A stretch of 64,000 nt of DNA from positions 124,001 to 188,000 of the forward strand of contig JAQWQC010000025.1 in the NCBI GenBank assembly GCA_029245025.1. The letters are read 5' to 3'. Origin of the DNA: Rhodospirillaceae bacterium. Lineage in GTDB: Bacteria > Pseudomonadota > Alphaproteobacteria > Rhodospirillales > Rhodospirillaceae. Shown one piece after another: positions 4,188-45,406 of this stretch (position 1 is the stretch's first letter; each line of letters begins with the position of its first letter). Below the pieces are notes generated by a model. The model searched no databases. It was not told where the DNA came from and saw only the letters and a program-made list of their open reading frames with translations. A program made the position numbers and the translations under genes.

Positions 4188-5183
4188 ATGAACAAAAAAC
4201 CAAAATCAGACACAAACCAGGCTGTTGTTCTCGATCTTGGCGCCGTTATTGCGACCGTAGATGCTGACCAGCCAAAGGTTTTATTGGTCGGTGCCGATGG
4301 TTCAGACGCTAGGCCGAGCCTACCGTCTGGCCCATTTGATCCAGAGGGCGACCGAACAATGGAGGAGGGGCTGCGCCGCTGGGTTGAGGAGCAGACGGGC
4401 CTAACCGTTGGATTTGTGGAACAGCTTTATACCTTCGGAGACCTGTTTCGCGATCCAGATGCTTTAGCCGGGGGGCCAAGATCTATTTCCGTCGGATATG
4501 TCGCCTTAATCCGCCAATCTGCGGCTAAGCGCCCGGCCAAGTCGGACTGGTTTGATTGGTACCGGCTGTTTCCCTGGGAAGACTGGCGCAATGGCCGGCC
4601 AGCCGTGCTGGATGAGGTTCTGAAACCAAAAATCAGCTCTTGGATTGACGAAGCTGCAGATGCCAAGGCGAAACGGGCGCGTCGCGGCCGAGCTGACGTC
4701 GCGTTTGGCTTCAGTGATGCCGGTTGGGATGCGGACCGCGTACTCGAGCGTTACGAATTACTATATGAGGCGGGTTTAGTCGTCGAAACAGTGATTGATG
4801 GGCGCATTAAGACCAGGCAGAACCAGTCTGATACCCTTGCCTGGACAGGGCTTCCGCTCCATCAGGATCACCGGCGTATACTCGCCACTGCGTTGGGCCG
4901 CTTGAGGGGTAAAATTCGCTATCGGCCCGTCATTTTTGAAGTTATGCCGATAGAATTTACATTATTACAGTTGCAAAGGGCAGTGGAGGCTCTTGCGGGA
5001 GCTCCCCTGCACAAACAGAATTTTAGGCGCTTGGTGGCCGCAGAGGGGCTGGTGGAGCCGACTGGGCGAGTCTCATCAGAAACAGGCGGTCGACCTGCTG
5101 AGCTATTCAGTTTTCGGCCTGACGTAGTGCGAGAGCGTCCCGCACCAGGTGTTCGCATGCCCCGTGGCCGGCGCACGCGATAG
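4188..5183 (+). CDS. nrtR: NrtR-type transcriptional regulator of NAD synthesis
   Basis: A 331-residue protein with an N-terminal Nudix fold (about residues 10-150) and a C-terminal winged-helix DNA-binding part (about 215-300). The Nudix box is degenerate: it reads LRRWVEEQTGL where a catalytic enzyme would have R-E-U-x-E-E. This is typical of NrtR, which uses the fold to sense ADP-ribose or NAD-related ligands rather than to hydrolyse them. NrtR proteins repress NAD synthesis and salvage genes. nadA and nadC follow directly on the same strand, which supports the assignment. Three candidate operators lie between nrtR and nadA. The C-terminal tail is rich in Arg and Pro. Confidence 0.8.
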   Translation: MNKKPKSDTNQAVVLDLGAVIATVDADQPKVLLVGADGSDARPSLPSGPFDPEGDRTMEEGLRRWVEEQTGLTVGFVEQLYTFGDLFRDPDALAGGPRSISVGYVALIRQSAAKRPAKSDWFDWYRLFPWEDWRNGRPAVLDEVLKPKISSWIDEAADAKAKRARRGRADVAFGFSDAGWDADRVLERYELLYEAGLVVETVIDGRIKTRQNQSDTLAWTGLPLHQDHRRILATALGRLRGKIRYRPVIFEVMPIEFTLLQLQRAVEALAGAPLHKQNFRRLVAAEGLVEPTGRVSSETGGRPAELFSFRPDVVRERPAPGVRMPRGRRTR

Positions 5184-5224
5184 CGGAATATAGACGATTT
5201 TGGGAGTTGTGACTGCACTTGGAC

Positions 5225-5237
5225 GCTCAGTGTGAGG
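5225..5237. promoter_or_regulatory. candidate NrtR operator, site 1
   Basis: The inverted repeat GCTCA-GTG-TGAGg lies 135 bases before the nadA start. It shares the layout GCTCA-N3-T(G/A)AG with two further sites downstream. The operator role is inferred from position and repetition. Confidence 0.45.
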
Positions 5238-5278
5238 TCGCGATTTCTTGACTTGTGACACCCGCGTGACTAGCTTCC

Positions 5279-5291
5279 GCTCAGCGTGAGC
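5279..5291. promoter_or_regulatory. candidate NrtR operator, site 2
   Basis: The perfect inverted repeat GCTCA-GCG-TGAGC starts 54 bases after site 1, about five helical turns, so a regulator could bind both on the same face of the helix. It lies just before the AT-rich stretch likely to hold the nadA promoter. Confidence 0.5.
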
Positions 5292-5321
5292 ATAAGGGCG
5301 TCTTTTTTATATACCCCACAT

Positions 5322-5338
5322 ATGCTCAAAATAAGTAT
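5322..5338. promoter_or_regulatory. candidate NrtR operator, site 3
   Basis: The imperfect inverted repeat ATGCTCA-AAA-TAAGTAT lies 33 bases before the nadA start, close to the likely transcription start. It keeps the GCTCA half-site of sites 1 and 2 but is more AT-rich, as known NrtR operators tend to be. Confidence 0.45.
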
Positions 5339-5371
5339 AAGTGTCACGTAATTGTGTGAAAGATTGGCGGT

Positions 5372-6400
5372 ATGAACGCTTCAAACATTGCTCCAGCTGA
5401 CTTGATGTTTAGCGAAGAGATCCAGAGCCGCACAGCCCCATTGTATGACCGGGTGAAAAAAGTCATTCCAGAGATCGAGTGGGCCGTTCACGCACCCAAG
5501 ATAGATGCCATCAATAAACTGAAGGCAGAACGCAATGCCGTGATTCTCGGGCATAACTATATGACACCCGAAATCTACCATTGCGTTGCGGATATCGTTG
5601 GCGATTCTCTGGCCCTAGCGCGTCACGCTGTCGATACGGATGCTGATGTCATTGTGATGGCTGGTGTGCATTTCATGGCGGAAACCACCAAGTTGATTAA
5701 CCCAAATAAGACCGTTGTGATTCCTGATCTTCACGCTGGGTGTTCTCTGGCAGCTTCGATTACGGGAGCTGACGTGCGCTTGATGAAAGAAAAATATCCT
5801 GGCGCACCGGTGGTAACTTATGTGAACACGTCTGCAGAAGTAAAAGCAGAATCAGACATTTGCTGCACCTCTGGTAACGCCAAGCAGATTATTGAGTCTC
5901 TTGGTGTAGATCAGGTCATTATGTTGCCGGATGAATATCTCGCGCAGAATGTCGCACGTGAAACAAATGTGAACATCGTCACTTGGAAGGGGCGGTGTGA
6001 AGTTCATGAACAATTCACCCCGCAAGACATTCGTGATTTCCGCGAGAGTTATCCGGGTGTTGTAGTTTTGGCCCATCCGGAATGCCCACCCAATGTCATC
6101 GATGAGGCGGATTACTCCGGTTCAACGGCAGGTATGGCTGGCTATGTCGGTGAATACAATCCAGCTCGAGTTGTGTTGGTTACGGAATGCTCTATGAGCG
6201 ACAATGTGTCAGCTCAATACCCAGACATCGAATTTGTAAAGCCATGCAACTTATGTCCACATATGAAGCGGATCGAGCTTGATAATATTTTGACAGCGCT
6301 CCAGAACATGGAACACGAAGTGACGATCGATCCTGCAATCGCTGAAAGCGCAAGGCGGTCTGTGGATCGCATGCTTAATGGATGGCAGCCCGGTCAATAA
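5372..6400 (+). CDS. nadA: quinolinate synthase A
   Basis: NadA condenses iminoaspartate with dihydroxyacetone phosphate to quinolinate on a [4Fe-4S] cluster. The 342-residue frame has the family motifs [11 protein letters not shown] near residue 60, the CCTSGN stretch near 164, HPECPP near 234, ECSMSDN near 274 and the PCNLCPHMK cysteines near the C-terminus. nadC follows 37 bases later, so the two form an operon. The usual third gene, nadB (L-aspartate oxidase), is not in the window. It may be elsewhere, or aspartate dehydrogenase may replace it. Three inverted repeats upstream suggest control by NrtR. Confidence 0.96.
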
Positions 6401-6437
6401 AGGCCAATATTTTCTATCCCTATCTTTGGGTGTTGCC

Positions 6438-7295
6438 ATGACGACGACTAACTTTCCTTTAGCGCCAGCAACACTTGAGCGCATCGTTCTCAATGCTCTT
6501 GATGAAGACCTTGGTGCTGCAGGAGACATTACGTCTAGCACGACAGTCTCTAAAGACGTTTCCGCGACGGCGGAATTGGTGGCCCGCAAGTCTGGTGTCA
6601 TTGCGGGGCTTGATGCGGCCAATCATGCATTTTCCCTGGTCGACGCATCGCTCAATATCGAGGATCTCGCGGCTGATGGAGATCAGCTCCTTGCAGGTGA
6701 TGCCGTTTTGCGTGTGTCTGGGAACGCGCGCGCAATTCTTGCGGCGGAACGTACAGCGCTTAATTTTCTCGGGCATCTCTCTGGTATTGCGACAGAGACC
6801 AGAATAATGGTCAACGCTGTGGCTCACACAAAAGCGCGTATTTGCTGCACCCGAAAGACTACCCCTGGTCTTCGTGCCCTAGAAAAATATGCGGTACGCT
6901 GTGGCGGTGGTTTCAATCATCGATTTGGTCTTGGTGACGGGGTGCTCATAAAGGACAACCACATTATTGCTGCTGAGGGTATCGCGATAGCATTGCGAAA
7001 TGCGAAGGCGACCGCAGGCCACATGGTCAAAATTGAGGCCGAGGTCGATCGTATTGACCAAATCGAAGAAGCTCTTGATGGTGGAGCAGATGTAATCATG
7101 CTCGATAACATGAATCCTAACGCTATGGCGGAAGCGGTTGCGCTGATAGATGGCAGGGCAGTTGTTGAGGCCTCAGGTTCGATCACGATTGACACGGTGG
7201 GGGTGGTGGCCGAAAGCGGTGTGGATGTCATTTCCGTTGGGTGGATTACCCATTCGGCGCCATGCTTGGACGTAGGCCTAGACTTCAGGGAATAG
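6438..7295 (+). CDS. nadC: nicotinate-nucleotide pyrophosphorylase (carboxylating)
   Basis: This 285-residue protein converts quinolinate and PRPP to nicotinate mononucleotide, the step after NadA. Motifs include ERTALNFLGHLSGIAT, the substrate-binding CCTRKTTPGLR, and VIMLDNM followed by EASGSI near the C-terminus. The frame is open from 6378, overlapping nadA, but I chose the ATG at 6438 because MTTTNFPLAP is where family members begin. It ends convergently with waaA, with only 68 bases between the stops. Confidence 0.95.
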   Translation: MTTTNFPLAPATLERIVLNALDEDLGAAGDITSSTTVSKDVSATAELVARKSGVIAGLDAANHAFSLVDASLNIEDLAADGDQLLAGDAVLRVSGNARAILAAERTALNFLGHLSGIATETRIMVNAVAHTKARICCTRKTTPGLRALEKYAVRCGGGFNHRFGLGDGVLIKDNHIIAAEGIAIALRNAKATAGHMVKIEAEVDRIDQIEEALDGGADVIMLDNMNPNAMAEAVALIDGRAVVEASGSITIDTVGVVAESGVDVISVGWITHSAPCLDVGLDFRE

Positions 7296-9781: not shown

Positions 9782-11293
9782 TCAATCTTCCAGCGATAAT
9801 GTGTGATAGCGAATAAAGCCGAAGGGTGCGTCATAGGTTTTGACGCGGCTGGCGATGCCATCAACGTGAATGTTTTCGTAAAGATAGATTCCTGGCGGAT
9901 CATCGTGCAGATCTTTCAATATGCCTCGCACCATGTCTCGACGGATGTTTGGGTTGAACTCTTGATCGGCCTCAAGGGTGCGTTGGGCAATGTCTTCGCG
10001 GCAGATCCATGGCCATGGCCAGAGGCAAGAGTGAAACCCCATGGAAGCGAGGGGGTCGAGCGATGGCAGTGATCCGTAATTCATATTGAAGGCTTTGCCA
10101 TCCCAAGGGGCGCCGTAGACACTTTGCACCTGTTTGGTGAAGGGTACCCGGATGAGTTCGACGTCCACACCAACTTGTCTCAAGTCTTGTGCGACTTGAA
10201 CATAAACGGACTCTTCTTCTGAGCTGGCGGACACAACTTGAAACGGAATAGTAAAGCCGTTTGGGTATCCAGCTTCGGCCAACAAAGCGCGCGCTTTATC
10301 TGGATCGTATGGGTAAGGTTTGATGTTGGGGTCGTATCCAAACGTGCCGCGGGCCGCGACTTGTCCGACTGCAACGGTGATGCCCTGCATCAAGGCGTCG
10401 ACGATGACCTCGATATTCACGGCATAGTTCAACGCTTGTCGTACACGCTTATCTTGCAGCGGACTTTCGACCTCGGTAACGAATTGCCACATCTGCACCG
10501 CGGCTCGGGTGCGATAGTCAATGCGAGCGCCTGACGCTTCGATTAGGAGGATGTCGGTAGACCCCAAGTCATAGGCAATATCCACTGCGCCTGAAACCAG
10601 CGCTTGCACTCTGGAGGTGGATTCGGGTGCTGCCGTGTAGTCGATCCGGTCAATTTGTCCTGGCCGCCATGCATGGGGGTTCTTAACCAGGCTGGCGCGA
10701 CCGGTTTCCCAGCGGTCCACCATGAAAGATCCTGTGCCGTATGGTTGCAGCGCGAAGGCACTGGCACCAACATCAGCAAAGTATTTCGGCGGCAACATGC
10801 GGATTCCCGCAAGCCGCCCTGGGATCAAGCTATCGGGCTGCGTGGTCTTTACTTCGAGCGTGAGCGTGTCTCGCGCTGTTGCTTGGGCAACGTTGCGCAC
10901 TTCTCGATGGACTGAGAAGACGCGTCCTTCATCGGTCAACAGGTAATTGATCGTCTTTGCGGCCGCTTCAGCGTCGAAGGGTTCGCCGTTGGAGAACAGA
11001 ATGCCTTCTTTGAGGGTAAAGACCCATGTTGTGTCATTTTCGTTGTGCCAGGAGTCTGCAAGGACTGGCTTCAGGTCGCCGTTTTCATCGATGCCGGTCA
11101 GGGCATCAAACAGCGCGGGCCAAATGAGCAATGGAGGCCAACCCCCAGAGGTGTGTGGGTTAGCGTTCCCGGGGGGCATGGTGCGCAAAGTAATCCGCAG
11201 ATTTTTCGTTTCCTCTGCGGAAGGTTCATTGGTCACCGTGAGAAGAAGTGACAATACGAAGGTGAAAAGTGTAATCAGTGTCATGACTCGCAC
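9782..11293 (-). CDS. ABC transporter substrate-binding protein, peptide/opine type
   Basis: A 503-residue SBP_bac_5 family protein with an N-terminal signal peptide likely cleaved near residue 26. Family landmarks include LADSWHNENDTTWVFTLKEG, FSNGEPFDAEAAAKTI, and the C-lobe pattern LNYAVNIEVIVDAL. Relatives capture oligopeptides, opines, nickel chelates or other small molecules in the periplasm. No permease or ATPase genes lie nearby, so it must use a transporter encoded elsewhere or act as a sensor. It is the last gene of a four-gene operon, 23 bases after the VOC-hydrolase gene, which suggests that it binds that enzyme's substrate or product. Confidence 0.85.
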   Translation of the reverse strand: MRVMTLITLFTFVLSLLLTVTNEPSAEETKNLRITLRTMPPGNANPHTSGGWPPLLIWPALFDALTGIDENGDLKPVLADSWHNENDTTWVFTLKEGILFSNGEPFDAEAAAKTINYLLTDEGRVFSVHREVRNVAQATARDTLTLEVKTTQPDSLIPGRLAGIRMLPPKYFADVGASAFALQPYGTGSFMVDRWETGRASLVKNPHAWRPGQIDRIDYTAAPESTSRVQALVSGAVDIAYDLGSTDILLIEASGARIDYRTRAAVQMWQFVTEVESPLQDKRVRQALNYAVNIEVIVDALMQGITVAVGQVAARGTFGYDPNIKPYPYDPDKARALLAEAGYPNGFTIPFQVVSASSEEESVYVQVAQDLRQVGVDVELIRVPFTKQVQSVYGAPWDGKAFNMNYGSLPSLDPLASMGFHSCLWPWPWICREDIAQRTLEADQEFNPNIRRDMVRGILKDLHDDPPGIYLYENIHVDGIASRVKTYDAPFGFIRYHTLSLED

Positions 11294-11316
11294 AGTGCCA
11301 TATCTGTGACCGCGTT

Positions 11317-13065
11317 TCAGGGCTTATATGCTACGTAAGGCTCAACAGGTTCGTCTAGAAAGACAGCTATAATTTCTGCCAATTCGTCGGCATGCAACTC
11401 GTAGATCCCAAGTTTCATGTGATCCAGCATGCGGTAATCAGAATTTTTCAAGAATGCATTTGCATTGGCTGTAGGCTCGGTGAGCATGGAGTCCGTATTG
11501 ATCACCAAGGTCCGTTGCCGGATTCGTGGTAGGCGATCCTCCGCCGCATAGGTAAAGACCGATTCAAACCCATGCCAAAAGTTTGCGCCGCTCTTGAGGT
11601 CTTCAACAAGGTTTTCTACTCCACGGCTGAGTGGAACGCCTTCAGCGCGTCGCCCAATATTGGTGGACCACTTTCCCTCAAGGGAATTCAAATTGTCGGT
11701 CAACCAAGATCCACTCCTTATCCCCTCCAGGTGTTCCTTGCGGTCTTCGGGTTTTCGATAGGGGTAAGTCACGAAAGCCAGTTTGGCGACTAGGTCTGCT
11801 CGCAGGATCGCGAGTTCGCCGGCAAAGGTAGAGCCGCTGTGATAGCCCATTACATCTACTCGTCCTGAATGGCTAACTCCAAAGCCCATATCATCCAGAG
11901 CATCGCCTATAGCCATGGCGTGCTCAGGCGTTGTCAATGGTTCGTCCTGCTTTACTGAATTGCCATAGCCGATGTGATCAAGGGCGATAACATCGCGGCT
12001 TTCATCGCAGGCCTGCATAAACGTACGAAAGTAAGCGCCAGAGTACGGAGAAGGATGAAGACAAATTAAAGGGCGCTTGGTCGGGTCAGTGCCACGCTTC
12101 CTGGTATAATGCATAGCGCCGTAACGGGTCGCTGCGTAGCCAACATCAAATCCGTCTGGGGTGTTGCCATCGCGCTGACCGGCTGTCTGGCGCCATCGAC
12201 GGTCAGCTTCTAGATCTTCTTCAAACGGGTCGCGGGGTGTGCCGTATTCGTGGGGTTCGAAACGTTCTTCAAATCCCATGATATGCCCTTCAGGCTCAAT
12301 GCAGACACTCATGTCGGCACTGTTCCAGCGGAAAGAGTCATTGCAAAAGGGAACGTCATTAGCCTTTAGGGCAGCGTTGAAGGCATCGTGGTCTTCAACG
12401 CGGACAATGAACTGGTTGCTAATTTCTGCCCTATCTTTCGGAGGTTTTTGTTGTTCTCCCCCGGAGGTAAGTTCCAAGTGCACGCCTTCGCCAAGGTCAA
12501 AAAGATGCCGACCGTTGTGCTTTCCAAGGTCTTTGAATCCGACAGTATCGCCATAGAACGAAGACATTGTGCCGATGTCTACGACAGGCCGTAGAATCGA
12601 GCGTAGTCCGATCACGTCTTCTGGCAATGGCGCACACCCCGGATTGTAGGATGATACATTCGAACGTCCGATGGCGAGTTCTCCATCTTTAGGTTGGCGA
12701 ATCCCAACGATTTGTTGGTCTGGGTCCAGGACAAAGGCTTCCGGGCCGAAGGCTGTGTCACTTCGGGAGATAAGCGACGCGCCATTGTTGAGCAAACGGT
12801 CAACGGTGACCTGTAAATCACGGCTATGAAAGATCGGCGTGCACGGATGTAGCGCAGGAGCAGTTACGCGTTCTCCCCTCAGGCTTCCATCTGCTTTCAG
12901 TTCAATGATGAAGGTTTCGCCAGCCCATAAAAAGTAGACTGGCTCTGCACCACGAATGACCGATGTTCCTAAAGCATCCCGGTAAAAGGGTAGTAGCGCT
13001 GTGGCGTTTGCGGTCCGGCGCATGTACCAGCCCGGGCCCATATGCAGCGCATTGGTAAGAGGCAT
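11317..13065 (-). CDS. fusion of two VOC domains and an alpha/beta hydrolase
   Basis: A 582-residue protein in three parts. Residues ~5-125 and ~150-275 each look like a vicinal-oxygen-chelate (glyoxalase/dioxygenase) module, with PFYRDALG and SSFYGDTVGF as the typical helix signatures. Residues ~330-575 are an alpha/beta hydrolase with ICLHPSPYSG as oxyanion segment and a late YELHADELAE histidine. Where most hydrolases have G-x-S-x-G, this one reads G-Y-H-S-G-S, so the classical serine is not at its normal place. No signal peptide is seen. The start lies five bases after the lipoprotein gene. Ring- or ester-cleaving catabolism is possible but unproven. Confidence 0.8.
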   Translation of the reverse strand: MPLTNALHMGPGWYMRRTANATALLPFYRDALGTSVIRGAEPVYFLWAGETFIIELKADGSLRGERVTAPALHPCTPIFHSRDLQVTVDRLLNNGASLISRSDTAFGPEAFVLDPDQQIVGIRQPKDGELAIGRSNVSSYNPGCAPLPEDVIGLRSILRPVVDIGTMSSFYGDTVGFKDLGKHNGRHLFDLGEGVHLELTSGGEQQKPPKDRAEISNQFIVRVEDHDAFNAALKANDVPFCNDSFRWNSADMSVCIEPEGHIMGFEERFEPHEYGTPRDPFEEDLEADRRWRQTAGQRDGNTPDGFDVGYAATRYGAMHYTRKRGTDPTKRPLICLHPSPYSGAYFRTFMQACDESRDVIALDHIGYGNSVKQDEPLTTPEHAMAIGDALDDMGFGVSHSGRVDVMGYHSGSTFAGELAILRADLVAKLAFVTYPYRKPEDRKEHLEGIRSGSWLTDNLNSLEGKWSTNIGRRAEGVPLSRGVENLVEDLKSGANFWHGFESVFTYAAEDRLPRIRQRTLVINTDSMLTEPTANANAFLKNSDYRMLDHMKLGIYELHADELAEIIAVFLDEPVEPYVAYKP

Positions 13066-13070
13066 AGAAC

Positions 13071-13607
13071 TCAGTCTTGCTCTGCCTTTGGCTTAAACCG
13101 CCATTCGCGCCAGCGTTTACCATCACGATGCTCAAAGACCACAAGGGTTTTGACGGAGCGTTGACCATCATCATCCGTAGAGAAAAAATCCTCTTCAATT
13201 TGGACTAAGGTGTTGTCCGTTAGACCCCACTTGTAGACATTGGCGCCGAGCCATTTGCCGGTGCCAAAGGACATGCCTACAGCTTTGCGAACTTCGTCAA
13301 CACCGCGCACACGCTCTTCGACACCCTCAGGGGTGATCTCATACATGGTGAAATCGTCGTCGAGACTTAGAATTGCGCCTTCAATATTCCGGTCATTGAA
13401 AAACTCTTCTGATTCTTCAATGACTGTGACGTAGCGATTGTCCCGCTCATAAAACTTGCTAAAGCCGCGCTCGAAGCCATCGTCAGAAATGTGGTCTCCG
13501 GTATTCGACGTGTTGCAACCAGACAACATGAGGCCAGCGGTTGTAGCGATGGCAATCACGAATGTGCGGCTACGGGCTGCTTGGGTGATCATCGACATGT
13601 GACTCAT
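13071..13607 (-). CDS. SnoaL/NTF2-like lipoprotein
   Basis: A 178-residue protein with a lipoprotein signal: a basic start, a hydrophobic stretch and the lipobox LSGC, giving a lipidated Cys at about residue 31. The remainder resembles a SnoaL/NTF2-fold domain, with an N-terminal helical part, SLDDDFTMYEITPEG and a C-terminal WREWRFKP strand. Such domains bind or isomerise small hydrophobic molecules. The start overlaps the stop of the upstream Tat-exported gene (ATGA), so both products probably act together in the cell envelope. The specific function is unknown. Confidence 0.7.
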   Translation of the reverse strand: MSHMSMITQAARSRTFVIAIATTAGLMLSGCNTSNTGDHISDDGFERGFSKFYERDNRYVTVIEESEEFFNDRNIEGAILSLDDDFTMYEITPEGVEERVRGVDEVRKAVGMSFGTGKWLGANVYKWGLTDNTLVQIEEDFFSTDDDGQRSVKTLVVFEHRDGKRWREWRFKPKAEQD

Positions 13608-14419
13608 CCCTTATTTTTCTTTTGTTGGGCCAAGAACTTTTCGATCTCAGCCTGTGGGTTCATCACCGTGTCGGAGTACATACCGATGGCGGTGTTTTTG
13701 TATTCTTCACCTCCCAAGTGATCGAGGATGAAGGCTGCGAAGTCTTCATAGGTAATCACCCGGGCACCCGGAGTGTCATTGGTGGTGTTGAACTTCATGT
13801 CGTTGCGGGCTGGCTCTTCGACCATAAATCCAGGACGCAGGAGAATGTAATCGAGCCCACTTTCGATGATCATTTTCTCCATCTCGTGCATATCGTTATA
13901 GAGATACCGTGCGTTCCAGCGCCAAAAGGCCGTCATATCGCCTGGCGGTGGTCGCGGGGCATTCACATCGGACTTGTGTTCGACACCAGTTGAGCTCGCC
14001 ATGATCAGGCGCTTGTTGCCCTTGGCTTTCATCGCGCCAATCAGATTCTCGGCCATCACCGTATAAATGTCGACTTCGCCAATCTCGGCCATTGGGTCTG
14101 CCTGTGGACCGCGTCCGACCATAGAGACGACTACTTCATCACCGGCGAGGATCGCATCGATCGACGTCCGGTCCCGAATGTCACCTTTGAACATTTGAAG
14201 GTTCTCGTGCTCGACCTCCAACTTCGACGGGGTGCGAGCCATGCCCTTAATTTTATATCCTTCGGCCAGACCTTGGCGGATGATCTCCCGCCCTGATCGC
14301 GCAGTTGCACCCATTAGGGCGATGGTGGGTTTCTTATGGCCATCCGCCAAGCTGAAGCGTGAGGTCAGCGCTGTGACCGCACCAGCCGCCGTCGTCGCCA
14401 TAAAATGTCTGCGGTTCAT
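13604..14419 (-). CDS. Tat-exported NAD(P)-binding protein (atypical SDR/NmrA-like)
   Basis: A 271-residue protein that begins with a twin-arginine-type signal (RRHFMATTAAG). A Rossmann fold follows, with the nucleotide loop as ALMGATARSGREI, in place of the usual GxxGxxG. It lacks the YxxxK pair of classical short-chain dehydrogenases and resembles NmrA/atypical SDR proteins (RLIMASSTGVEH, then LLRPGFM). Export of a folded protein with its cofactor would explain the Tat signal. I chose the ATG at 14419 over 14434 because it directly precedes the twin arginines. First gene of a four-gene operon. Confidence 0.78.
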   Translation of the reverse strand: MNRRHFMATTAAGAVTALTSRFSLADGHKKPTIALMGATARSGREIIRQGLAEGYKIKGMARTPSKLEVEHENLQMFKGDIRDRTSIDAILAGDEVVVSMVGRGPQADPMAEIGEVDIYTVMAENLIGAMKAKGNKRLIMASSTGVEHKSDVNAPRPPPGDMTAFWRWNARYLYNDMHEMEKMIIESGLDYILLRPGFMVEEPARNDMKFNTTNDTPGARVITYEDFAAFILDHLGGEEYKNTAIGMYSDTVMNPQAEIEKFLAQQKKNKG

Positions 14420-14434
14420 CTGTGTGCTCCCCAA

Positions 14435-42760: not shown

Positions 42761-42897
42761 CGGTGGAAATCCCCTAGTAGGTCGCCTAAGTTTCGATCTG
42801 CGAACTGAGAGTCTGAGTCTTATCATAGTTCCTCATTTGGCACTCAAGCCGGGCTCCTCTACCCCTTCACGATTACGTGTGGTTTGTTAAGGTTATG

Positions 42898-43917
42898 ATT
42901 ACAAAGCAGTTGGTTTACGTGCATAGCGTTGTTTTGGTCGTCTTTGGCCTGTTCAGCGCGTCAGAGGCCGCGGTGGCTGAGCCGCCTAAGGTAGCGGGAT
43001 TCGCAGCGCCTGGGACCGCGGGTGAAATCTACTGGCAAAAATTTGAAGATGCCGTAGACGCCCTAAGTGATGGCCGTCTGGGTGTGACCCTGATGGTTCA
43101 GGGTGAGGCAGGGCCCGAAGAAACCCAATTTGCTGGGTTACGCCGCAATCGGCTGCAAATGGCCGGTATTTCAACAGGCACTCTTGGGCTTGCTTTGTCT
43201 GAATTGGCGGTCCTAAGGGCGCCGTTTCTTTTCGAGTCCATTGAAGAAGCGTCATACGTGCTCGATACGCATCTTCTTAGGTCCATGGAGGCTCGATTTG
43301 CCGAGAAGAACTTAGTGCTTTTGTCTTGGATGATGGACGGATGGATGGATTTGTACACAAAATTTCCGGTCCGTATTCCTGCCGATTTAAGTGCCCGAAA
43401 AATACGGGTTTCTACAGATGATTCAGCTTTACTATACATGGCCGCGCTTGATGCCGATGTTATCCAAATTCCGTTGAGCGACGTCATACCGGGAATGCAG
43501 ACTGGGTTGGTCGAAGGAGGGGAGCAAAGCACCCAGATTTTTGCATTGGCAGGGCTTGATGCAACTGCCAATCACTTCACCTTAACCCACCATGCGTATT
43601 CGACAGCAGGCGTCGTCGCAAATAAAACGTGGTGGGACAGTTTGTCAATTGAAGAGCAGAAGGTGTATCGCGGTGCTATACCGGATGCCAATTGGTATCG
43701 TGATTTGGTACTCGACCGGAACGCTCTCTATTTGAAAAGAGCACAAGAAGACGGTCTAAATGTTGTTTATCCCTCAGCAGAAGAGCGCGCACTTTGGCAA
43801 CAGCTGGGTCAGAATATTTATAATGACTTGATTCGAGACATCGGCGGTAACGCAGCTGAGCTGTACGCAGAAATTATGCGGACTAAGGAAGAATTTGCGT
43901 CCCTGCGCGTCAACTAA
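42898..43917 (+). CDS. TRAP transporter substrate-binding protein (DctP type)
   Basis: About 339 residues with a signal peptide (ending AVA-EP). DctP-family landmarks are PGTAGEIYWQKFEDAVDALS, ELAVLRAPFLF, and ARKIRVSTDDSALLYMAALD around the ligand Arg. Such proteins deliver carboxylates to a DctQ-DctM membrane pair, but neither gene is nearby. It diverges from the ArsM-like gene. The start could also be 42877. Confidence 0.88.
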   Translation: MTKQLVYVHSVVLVVFGLFSASEAAVAEPPKVAGFAAPGTAGEIYWQKFEDAVDALSDGRLGVTLMVQGEAGPEETQFAGLRRNRLQMAGISTGTLGLALSELAVLRAPFLFESIEEASYVLDTHLLRSMEARFAEKNLVLLSWMMDGWMDLYTKFPVRIPADLSARKIRVSTDDSALLYMAALDADVIQIPLSDVIPGMQTGLVEGGEQSTQIFALAGLDATANHFTLTHHAYSTAGVVANKTWWDSLSIEEQKVYRGAIPDANWYRDLVLDRNALYLKRAQEDGLNVVYPSAEERALWQQLGQNIYNDLIRDIGGNAAELYAEIMRTKEEFASLRVN

Positions 43918-44026
43918 CCCCGCGTACTCAGTAATTTAACCATCTAACGAATGGGCGATATCCCTAAGTATTTGGCAAAGCAGGAAAACCTGCATAATAC
44001 GGAATGAATGGTGTCCAGGGGGAAGT

Positions 44027-45406
44027 ATGAACGATTCACCAAATGTGGATATTAAGATTCCGTTGGCTGTGGCCATCGGTTGGGGCGTCGGCACGGTCGT
44101 ACCTTCGATCATGTTCAACATCACGAACATCTGGTTAATGCCCTACATGACCAATTTCTTGGGAATCGCGGCGGCCGCAGCTGGAAGTATCTTTTTCTTG
44201 TCAAAAATTTATGACGCTGTCACAGATCCCCTGATGGGTGTGATCAGTGACAAGACACGCACACGGTGGGGTCGCCATCGGCCGTACCTTGTGTTGGGTG
44301 CAATTATTAGCGCGCTATCGATACTGGCTCTTTTCGCGCCTCCGAGCGCTGTCAGTGCCGATATAGCTGTGTGGTACATGCTATTTGCCCTGATCCTGTA
44401 TTCTACCGGCTATACGATCTTTAATGTTCCTTATTTGGCCATGCCGGCTGAGATGACGCAGAACTTCCATGATCGTTCATTTTTGATGTCGTGGCGCGTT
44501 ACCGCGATCCAGGTGGCTCAGATCGGTGCGTTGATCGGTTCGTCATTTCTCCTGTCCATTTTTGGCGATGACCGTCAGGGTTACGCGCTTGTCGCGTGGA
44601 TCATGGCTGGTCTTATTGTTTTAGCAGGCTTTACCAGCTTTGGCATGACCGCCAAGGCCCGCTTTCATCAGGTGCCGCATGGTCCAACTCCGCCATTCCG
44701 TGAGCAGCTTCGAACAGTTGCTGGCAACAAACCGTTCCTTCAGCTGGTCGGCATCAAATTCCTGATGCTATTGGCGAACTCCTTCAGCTTTGGCGCGTAC
44801 GCCTATTTTGTGCTTCGCGTACTCCAAGAAAACACAGATACCATGGGCTACATGTTTATCGCATCGACGTCATCTGCTCTCCTCGCCATACCGATCTGGC
44901 TTCGCATCTCAAAGATTATTGGCAAGCAAAAGTCTTTGATGATCGCGTGTGGCATACTTACTTTGACCAGTGCGTCTTGGTTGTTAGCTGGGCCCGGTGA
45001 TCCATTGTTTATGATTTTACTCCGACCCCTTGGAACCGGCATTGCGGCCGCCGGTATGCTGATGATCGGACAGTCTATGCTGCCAGACACGATAGAGTAC
45101 GACCGGCGGCGAACAGGTCTGGAGCGTGCCGGTATATTTGCAGGAATCTATACCACAGCCGAGAAAATGGCCTACGCGTTTGGACCTGCTTTGACCGGCT
45201 TCTTGCTGAGTTCTATGGGGTACGTGTCTGGCACTGAAGGGATGGCAATAGAACAGCCAGAAAGTGCCATTACGGCTATCTATATTGCAATCGGTATTGC
45301 ACCGGGAGTCTGTCTGCTAGGGGCAATTTCTCTCACTAAGTTTTACAAACTCGATGAAGAAAAATTAAAGGCAACGACGCTAGAAGAGGTGGTCCCTGCT
45401 CAGTAA
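44027..45406 (+). CDS. GPH/MelB-type sodium-sugar symporter (MFS)
   Basis: A 459-residue twelve-helix protein of the glycoside-pentoside-hexuronide group. DAVTDPLMGVISDKTRTRWGRHRPYL is the MelB signature with cation-site Asp residues. A mid-protein repeat, MLPDTIEYDRRRTGLERAG, follows. It should import a sugar or related compound with Na+ or H+. The ribosome site GGGGGAAG precedes the ATG. Confidence 0.92.
   Translation: MNDSPNVDIKIPLAVAIGWGVGTVVPSIMFNITNIWLMPYMTNFLGIAAAAAGSIFFLSKIYDAVTDPLMGVISDKTRTRWGRHRPYLVLGAIISALSILALFAPPSAVSADIAVWYMLFALILYSTGYTIFNVPYLAMPAEMTQNFHDRSFLMSWRVTAIQVAQIGALIGSSFLLSIFGDDRQGYALVAWIMAGLIVLAGFTSFGMTAKARFHQVPHGPTPPFREQLRTVAGNKPFLQLVGIKFLMLLANSFSFGAYAYFVLRVLQENTDTMGYMFIASTSSALLAIPIWLRISKIIGKQKSLMIACGILTLTSASWLLAGPGDPLFMILLRPLGTGIAAAGMLMIGQSMLPDTIEYDRRRTGLERAGIFAGIYTTAEKMAYAFGPALTGFLLSSMGYVSGTEGMAIEQPESAITAIYIAIGIAPGVCLLGAISLTKFYKLDEEKLKATTLEEVVPAQ

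Follow-up and report, generated by a model that had tools for sequence, protein, structure and literature searches.

The question raised by a run of four genes in a Rhodospirillaceae bacterium (assembly GCA_029245025.1, contig JAQWQC010000025.1) is what a dinucleotide-fold protein, a lipoprotein, a fusion protein with a hydrolase fold, and a peptide-type binding protein might do together. The genes, referred to here as A to D, lie at positions 9782 to 14419 of a 64,000-nucleotide stretch of the contig (positions 124,001 to 188,000, forward strand), which we call the window. Our answer, for which the chances seem evenly balanced, is that A to D form an accessory, envelope-centred operon for the uptake and breakdown of one small organic compound. 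More interesting than the operon itself is, at the genome level, an expanded clade of hydrolase-fold proteins with the motif GxH[TS]G alongside family-5 extracellular solute-binding proteins that have no permeases of their own.

The four open reading frames (ORFs) are all on the minus strand, and their coordinates confirm the close packing described in the original prediction, with junctions of -4, 5, and 23 bases. The family assignments made there are also borne out, those of A, C, and D by Pfam. Gene B matched no Pfam or NCBIfam model; its assignment as SnoaL-like is judged right because of its modeled fold and because, of the 21 sequences in its alignment, 13 match SnoaL_2, although B is not one of them. 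Three products (A, B, and D) are predicted to leave the cytoplasm, from a twin-arginine start in A, a lipobox cysteine in B, and a start in D that looks Sec-like by eye, and these three exports stand as first proposed; C, in which no signal peptide was seen by eye, is predicted to stay. A scan for promoters and terminators gave 3 and 7 sites, compared with means of 3.9 and 5.8 after shuffling, and an Rfam scan of the window gave no match at gathering scores. On the operon strand there is no regulator or sensor kinase among the genes of the operon; a response regulator and kinase gene lie about 2 kb off, on the other strand. No characterized cluster combining these four families was found in the open-licence literature.

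Gene C (positions 11317 to 13065, minus strand) encodes a 582-amino-acid VOC-VOC-α/β-hydrolase-fold fusion, in which Pfam places Glyoxalase above its cut-off and Abhydrolase_1 below it. The hydrolase-fold half (residues 295 to 582; positions 11317 to 12183) was modeled with a mean pLDDT of 90.8 and a pTM of 0.90, and its best structural match is 4dgq (Z, 28.3; root mean square deviation, 2.3; 255 residues aligned), with matches of the haloperoxidase, esterase, and perhydrolase types. The elbow G-x-Ser-x-G is replaced in C by GYHSG, and the Ser, Asp, or Cys nucleophile is absent. The elbow residue, His409 (positions 11839 to 11841, minus strand), is predicted by the model to sit between strand 109-114 and helix 116-127, that is, at the position of the nucleophile, and the histidine is invariant in all 17 rows of the alignment of this half (A3).

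A profile built from A3 found 31 proteins at an E value of ≤1e-4 in the window and the fetched regions of the window's own genome. The elbow residue is His in 23, Ala in 2, and Phe in 1 of the 26 members with an E value of <1e-40 and Ser in all five weaker ones, a count that describes only the sequences read, because the rows of A3 were picked for their resemblance to C and include many of the 26, and the fetched regions cover only part of the genome. Relatives were also found in 10 plasmid records, and the five that were read (two from Novosphingobium and the others from Variovorax, Antarctobacter, and Rhodococcus) all have G-x-His-Thr-Gly. The commonest weak NCBIfam matches are to haloperoxidase/esterase-like hydrolases and PcaD-type enol-lactonases. 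With these enzymes C shares the fold and weak profile matches, but it differs from them in having His at the elbow in place of Ser, Asp, or Cys and in the inconsistency of the C-terminal catalytic His, which is aligned in some members only, in a column that gaps make unsure. In public annotation the members of the clade are called just "alpha/beta hydrolase" or "alpha/beta fold hydrolase," and the open-licence papers searched yielded no description of a hydrolase-fold clade in which the catalytic Ser is replaced in this way.

Among other members of the clade, two adjacent genes at L163:7720-10988 (G000:C20) encode double-length proteins of 559 and 525 amino acids with Ala at the elbow. Stand-alone members are encoded at L144:5685-6638, L147:5692-6636, L158:7527-8495, and L141:6884-7777 (all G000); their starts are Tat-like (twin-arginine translocation) in three and Sec-like, by eye, in one, which predicts a periplasmic location for some of the clade.

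The VOC-VOC half of C (residues 1 to 289; positions 12198 to 13065, minus strand; alignments A2 and A5) has stand-alone VOC-VOC relatives of about 300 amino acids that align along the entire half with 26 to 32% identity. The nearest profiles of this half and its relatives are weak matches to FosA and glyoxalase modules, and C's own half matches no NCBIfam model. No column of A5 (10 rows) has His at ≥90%, and thus the 2-His-1-Glu metal ligands that extradiol dioxygenases use are not conserved. Paired VOC domains and weak sequence matches are shared with two-domain VOC proteins such as extradiol dioxygenases, FosA, and glyoxalase I; in contrast to these, C has no conserved facial-triad His column and is fused to a hydrolase-fold domain. 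A ring-cleavage fusion, joining an extradiol dioxygenase to a C-C hydrolase, was considered and rejected, since the VOC half is without conserved His ligands and the elbow is without Ser.

Gene D (positions 9782 to 11293, minus strand) encodes a 503-amino-acid family-5 extracellular solute-binding protein. Its start codon is GTG, with an ATG at 11284 as a possible alternative, and in Pfam it matches only SBP_bac_5 (PF00496; E value, 2e-66). The nearest solved structures are of the peptide, GsiB, and NikA types. In the family-5 ABC uptake operons (Opp/Dpp/Nik) the binding protein has a linked pair of BPD_transp_1 permeases; here SBP_bac_5 is present in the operon and the linked pair is not. Permeases, whose co-occurrence the original prediction had proposed to look for, were sought and none was linked: the contig that carries D (C34; 217,677 bases) gave no BPD_transp_1 match, and neither did the permease profile in the six other loci of the genus that correspond to the D site (L013, L014, and L113 to L116). 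A peptide ABC operon with a nearby permease was rejected on these two results.

The same absence extends across the genome. SBP_bac_5 has 35 matches in the 3.1-Mb genome of the window, which amount to 34 genes when two adjacent fragments, apparently of a single gene, are counted once, and the BPD_transp_1 permease family has 21. There is no permease within 10 kb of 27 of the 34 genes; the genome is a draft of 36 contigs, and a few partners may therefore lie beyond contig ends. When first-look candidates, rather than confirmed genes, were counted in 41 genomes (with the best 36 binding proteins and the best 61 permeases of each genome scored), binding proteins outnumbered permeases in 10, comprising all seven members of the window's genus together with G009, G011, and G022, at ratios of 1.35 to 2.09; the ratio in the other 31 genomes was at most 0.68. 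Candidates for C-type hydrolases numbered 38 to 59 in the ten high genomes and ≤26 in the other 31. Two further genomes, G029 and G030, which belong to a wider set of 61 and not to the 41, have 43 and 26.

GxH[TS]G may be a large and widespread hydrolase-fold clade with a near-invariant His in place of the nucleophile, serving novel chemistry or pure ligand binding, that in this lineage expanded together with family-5 binding proteins which have left their own ABC permeases and carry ligands to such enzymes, some of them exported. This is a tentative proposal with an appreciable but minor chance of being right. If it is right, the clade could not use the textbook Ser, Asp, or Cys nucleophile, and the lineage would have uncoupled its family-5 binding proteins from ABC permeases genome-wide, a further case of orphan binding proteins in a different protein family. 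Orphan expansions of TctC/Bug proteins are described in Bordetella, Cupriavidus, and Rhodoplanes, with up to 434 genes in Rhodoplanes, and shared membrane partners or a sensing role have been proposed for them (PMC5994714, in excerpt). As far as that excerpt goes, the two situations are alike in having tens of binding-protein genes of one family and far fewer membrane partners, and a GxHTG hydrolase relative adjoins a TctC-type gene in Variovorax. In contrast to the TctC/Bug case, the expanded family here is SBP_bac_5, with its 34 genes in an alphaproteobacterial lineage; with a family-5 rather than a TctC binding protein, the expansion resembles those of TctC/Bug without being one of them. 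No description of a family-5 orphan expansion was found in the open-licence papers.

Other family-5 loci show further arrangements. At L129:4223-11224 (G000:C20), three tandem family-5 genes adjoin the gene for a TonB-dependent receptor, and no permease lies within 50 kb. Family-5 and MFS transporter genes form one run at L162:4637-7566, where they are 5 bases apart, and at L132:6180-10396 (both G000), which is unexpected for ABC-type binding proteins. DUF1838 proteins with Tat-like starts are encoded near family-5 genes at L160:7593-8501 and L165:3758-4603 (both G000), the L160 match being just under the Pfam cut-off.

The other two genes of the operon form a pair that recurs. Gene A (positions 13604 to 14419, minus strand; 271 amino acids) has an ATG start, with an in-frame TTG at 14434, and encodes a Tat-type NAD(P)-fold protein (NAD_binding_10/NmrA; Pfam E value, 5e-32) that scores 111.7 bits against the curated NAD_binding_10 cut-off of 27.2. 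Its nearest solved relatives are of the flavin reductase (NADPH)/biliverdin IX-beta reductase type (E value, 5e-12). The match to these and to NmrA-like proteins extends over most of A, but A differs from them in its Tat-type signal and in its dinucleotide motif, GATARSG, which has Ala at the second Gly position. The signal falls below the curated cut-offs (17.6 versus 22.7 bits for Pfam TAT_signal and 14.6 versus 16.7 bits for TIGR01409); a twin-arginine start followed by a hydrophobic stretch was seen by eye in all seven A-type sequences compared. Gene B (positions 13071 to 13607, minus strand; 178 amino acids) encodes a SnoaL/NTF2-fold lipoprotein, and its lipobox Cys is kept in all five genus rows aligned. 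The AlphaFold2 model has a mean pLDDT of 74.7, with residues 1 to 48 largely unreliable, and Foldseek matched it to SnoaL-like proteins, ketosteroid isomerases, and limonene-epoxide hydrolases (LEH). In this model B has the cone-shaped α+β fold of the SnoaL/NTF2 proteins; it differs from them as a lipoprotein without a Pfam match of its own.

An A-type gene lies within 3.5 kb of a B-type gene in 17 of 26 places; in a background of 168 genes from the genome of the window, 15 have such a neighbor. The 26 places are 24 of the 26 B-type matches in the set of 41 genomes, a second gene fragment and a tandem neighbor having been dropped, and two places in G353, a genome of another family. This count must be read with caution, as the profile was built partly from those same neighbors, loci that are orthologs within one genus do not count as independent, and G004, with its decayed A gene, was scored as a miss. 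In our own grouping of the places, the pair occurs in about six of eight locus types. One recurring type combines NAD-fold and SnoaL genes with genes for an exported protein of 332 to 340 amino acids and a GLUG-repeat protein. By Pfam, L121 and L124 have both GLUG and cytochrome c; L126, in the window's own genome, has genes 78% and 85% identical to those of L121; and L180, in G353, has GLUG only, its locus being cut by a contig end. Also in G353, relatives of A (55% identity) and B (38% identity) are separated by 18 bases, and the A-type gene, without a signal at the called start, has an open frame that extends upstream to an RR-type signal start. Relatives of B were found in 9 of the 41 genomes (E value, 1e-3) and, in a sample of 385 genomes of the class, in only 2 (E value, 1e-8), the window's own and G353; no plasmid record matched. 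Relatives in so few genomes mean that even the A-B pair is not common. Judged from these sequence comparisons, A and B are the recurring part of the operon.

Full-length C is far more restricted, being found in 3 of the 61 genomes, the window's own included (E value, 1e-60). All three belong to the window's genus, which has seven members in the set, and in the class sample only the window's own genome has it (E value, 1e-45). A, B, C, and D stand in the same order beside dksA in three genomes, those of the window and of the alphaproteobacterial MAG contigs JAURPI010000017.1 and WLXB01000101.1. At the corresponding site, G003 has A, B, and D, and matches to both ends of C can still be recognized in the short interval separating B from D. 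The G004 site holds a decayed A and a D split among several frames; between B and D there is a weak match to C-terminal residues 533 to 576 of C (E value, 3e-5). G004 is a draft, 83% complete, and sequencing errors may add to the apparent decay. G001 retains A and B only, and G005 retains D only. C is or was beside B in five of the seven genus genomes, and its remnants in G003 and G004 imply a set that predates its present distribution and is decaying and dispensable. The original prediction had named rare co-occurrence of the four genes as a finding that would refute it, and here the answer is divided: the full set was seen in one genus only and is decaying there, but A and B recur elsewhere. 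By its distribution, the operon is a genus-level, decaying, dispensable accessory module.

Where the genes remain, they appear to be constrained. Pairwise dN/dS between the window and G006 is 0.38 for A, 0.14 for B, 0.12 for C, and 0.05 for D; the corresponding G002 values are 0.05 for A, 0.05 for D, and 0.06 for the VOC half, those for B and whole C being not estimable because synonymous sites are saturated. Values of <0.4 wherever estimable indicate that A to D look like real genes under constraint. dS to the nearest species (G006; locus L013) jumps along the operon: it is 0.03 to 0.04 in A and B and 0.07 in the VOC half, against 0.5 in the hydrolase half and 0.45 in D, which suggests that the stretch from A through the VOC half has recombined between the two lineages.

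From the genes, their order and conservation, the fold classes, the signal-like starts, the missing permease, and the His elbow, we infer a ligand, a direction of flow, and a set of reactions along the following lines. D, by its family, would bind the compound in the periplasm and, without a permease of its own, might pass it to one of the few Dpp/Opp-type permeases or to a neighboring periplasmic protein. A would be exported folded, with NAD(P) bound, through the Tat system, and B would be anchored in the membrane. As a recurring pair, A and B could reduce, isomerize, or hydrate the compound, probably in the periplasm. C would act in the cytoplasm on the imported product, which the VOC pair may bind; its hydrolase-fold half might act on an intermediate that resembles an ester, lactone, or enol, using general base/acid catalysis instead of a covalent Ser mechanism, or might serve binding only. 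The operon would then be one of many small modules assembled from the lineage-expanded families of binding proteins and GxH[TS]G hydrolases.

The catabolic part of this reading is drawn from gene company. A relative of C at L142, in the window's own genome, stands in a tight run with genes for flavin reductase, NmrA, FAD_binding_3, MFS, and MmgE/PrpD proteins. On the Variovorax plasmid, the GxHTG hydrolase gene begins 4 bases past the TctC-type binding-protein gene and is followed by genes for an amidohydrolase and an adenylate-forming enzyme. Among the 20 neighbors of family-5 genes scanned, families that would fit uptake and breakdown are C-N hydrolase, Rieske oxygenase, TonB receptor, FAD oxidoreductase, MFS, and SnoaL; the C-N hydrolase and Rieske oxygenase genes share one locus, and the TonB-receptor gene lies at another. 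Capture and processing of a specific small molecule, as originally suggested, is partly supported, being consistent with the parts of the operon and with the company that some related genes keep.

Several observations weigh against an uptake and breakdown operon. The set was not seen outside the genus, in either the 61-genome set or the class sample; since two members have C only in deleted or broken form and others lack A, B, or D, the four genes may not form one pathway. At L119 and L120 the neighboring A-type and B-type genes, with the starts called, encode no signal sequence; a periplasmic location is thus not a constant feature of the pair. Over the 41 genomes, binding-protein counts correlate with those of C-type hydrolases (Spearman, 0.72), but the correlation rests on related genomes, 7 of the 10 high ones being of one genus, and the counts also track the number of permeases (0.46) and the size of the genome (0.44). 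In the window's own genome, family-5 genes do not preferentially adjoin hydrolase, MFS, SnoaL, or NAD-fold genes. For the 32 family-5 genes examined, D being excluded, hydrolase neighbors were found at 3, compared with 57 of 216 in the background, which is inflated because loci had been fetched for hydrolases; the corresponding counts, from neighbor-family profiles built from few sequences, are 2 versus 16 of 234 for MFS, 2 versus 13 of 234 for NAD-fold, and 1 versus 8 of 231 for SnoaL genes. TonB receptors were found near 4 of the 32, compared with 10 of 237, with three of the four at one locus. Given no local clustering, the two expansions are linked at the genome level only, and the D-C link is one case: the operon in the window is the only tight codirectional run joining the two families that we noticed. 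Tat signals are not significantly enriched near binding proteins (18 of 173 versus 27 of 377; P = 0.24), as judged with a simple pattern that also caught some permeases. Mixed families predominate among the scanned family-5 neighbors, and several, namely FGE-sulfatase, Bax1-I, DUF1761, DUF1499, and DUF1838, point nowhere.

An alternative with a real, if minor, chance of being correct is that A and B alone are functional, as a mostly exported NAD(P)-fold and SnoaL pair of a cytochrome c/GLUG-type cassette, and that C and D are chance additions being lost. The two genes are neighbors in several locus types and in another family (G353), related pairs accompany the exported 332- to 340-amino-acid protein and the GLUG protein at L121, L124, L126, and L180, and C is deleted in G003 and G004, with both C and D absent at the G001 locus. 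Against this, three species retain all four genes closely spaced and in the same order, and purifying selection acts on C and D where it is measurable; with the remnants in G003 and G004, C is or was beside B in five of seven genus genomes.

It is unlikely that the operon is instead a module for detoxification or stress sensing, with a FosA/glyoxalase-like VOC half, a redox-sensing NmrA-type fold in A, and D as a sensor rather than a transporter. NmrA-like proteins can act as redox sensors. The nearest VOC profiles are indeed of the FosA and glyoxalase types, but these matches are weak, and the VOC half has no conserved His column for a metal site. A sensing role has been proposed for orphan binding proteins (PMC5994714, in excerpt), but the operon has neither regulator nor sensor kinase. 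That it is a peptide ABC uptake operon which merely lost its permease genes is very improbable: D clearly belongs to SBP_bac_5 and has solved relatives of the GsiB/NikA type, but simple loss of a partner leaves unexplained why binding proteins outnumber permeases in 10 of 41 genomes, and the permease is likewise missing near 27 of the 34 family-5 genes and at six other loci of the genus.

Two observations concern other parts of the window. At positions 42895 to 45406, a family-7 (DctP) binding-protein gene is followed by a gene for a 459-amino-acid protein that looks transporter-like by eye, with no obvious DctQ/DctM pair, possibly an unusual partner. At positions 4188 to 7295, a gene for a 331-amino-acid protein, NUDIX-like by eye, lies directly upstream of nadA- and nadC-like genes; it presumably resembles the NrtR-type regulators of NAD metabolism.

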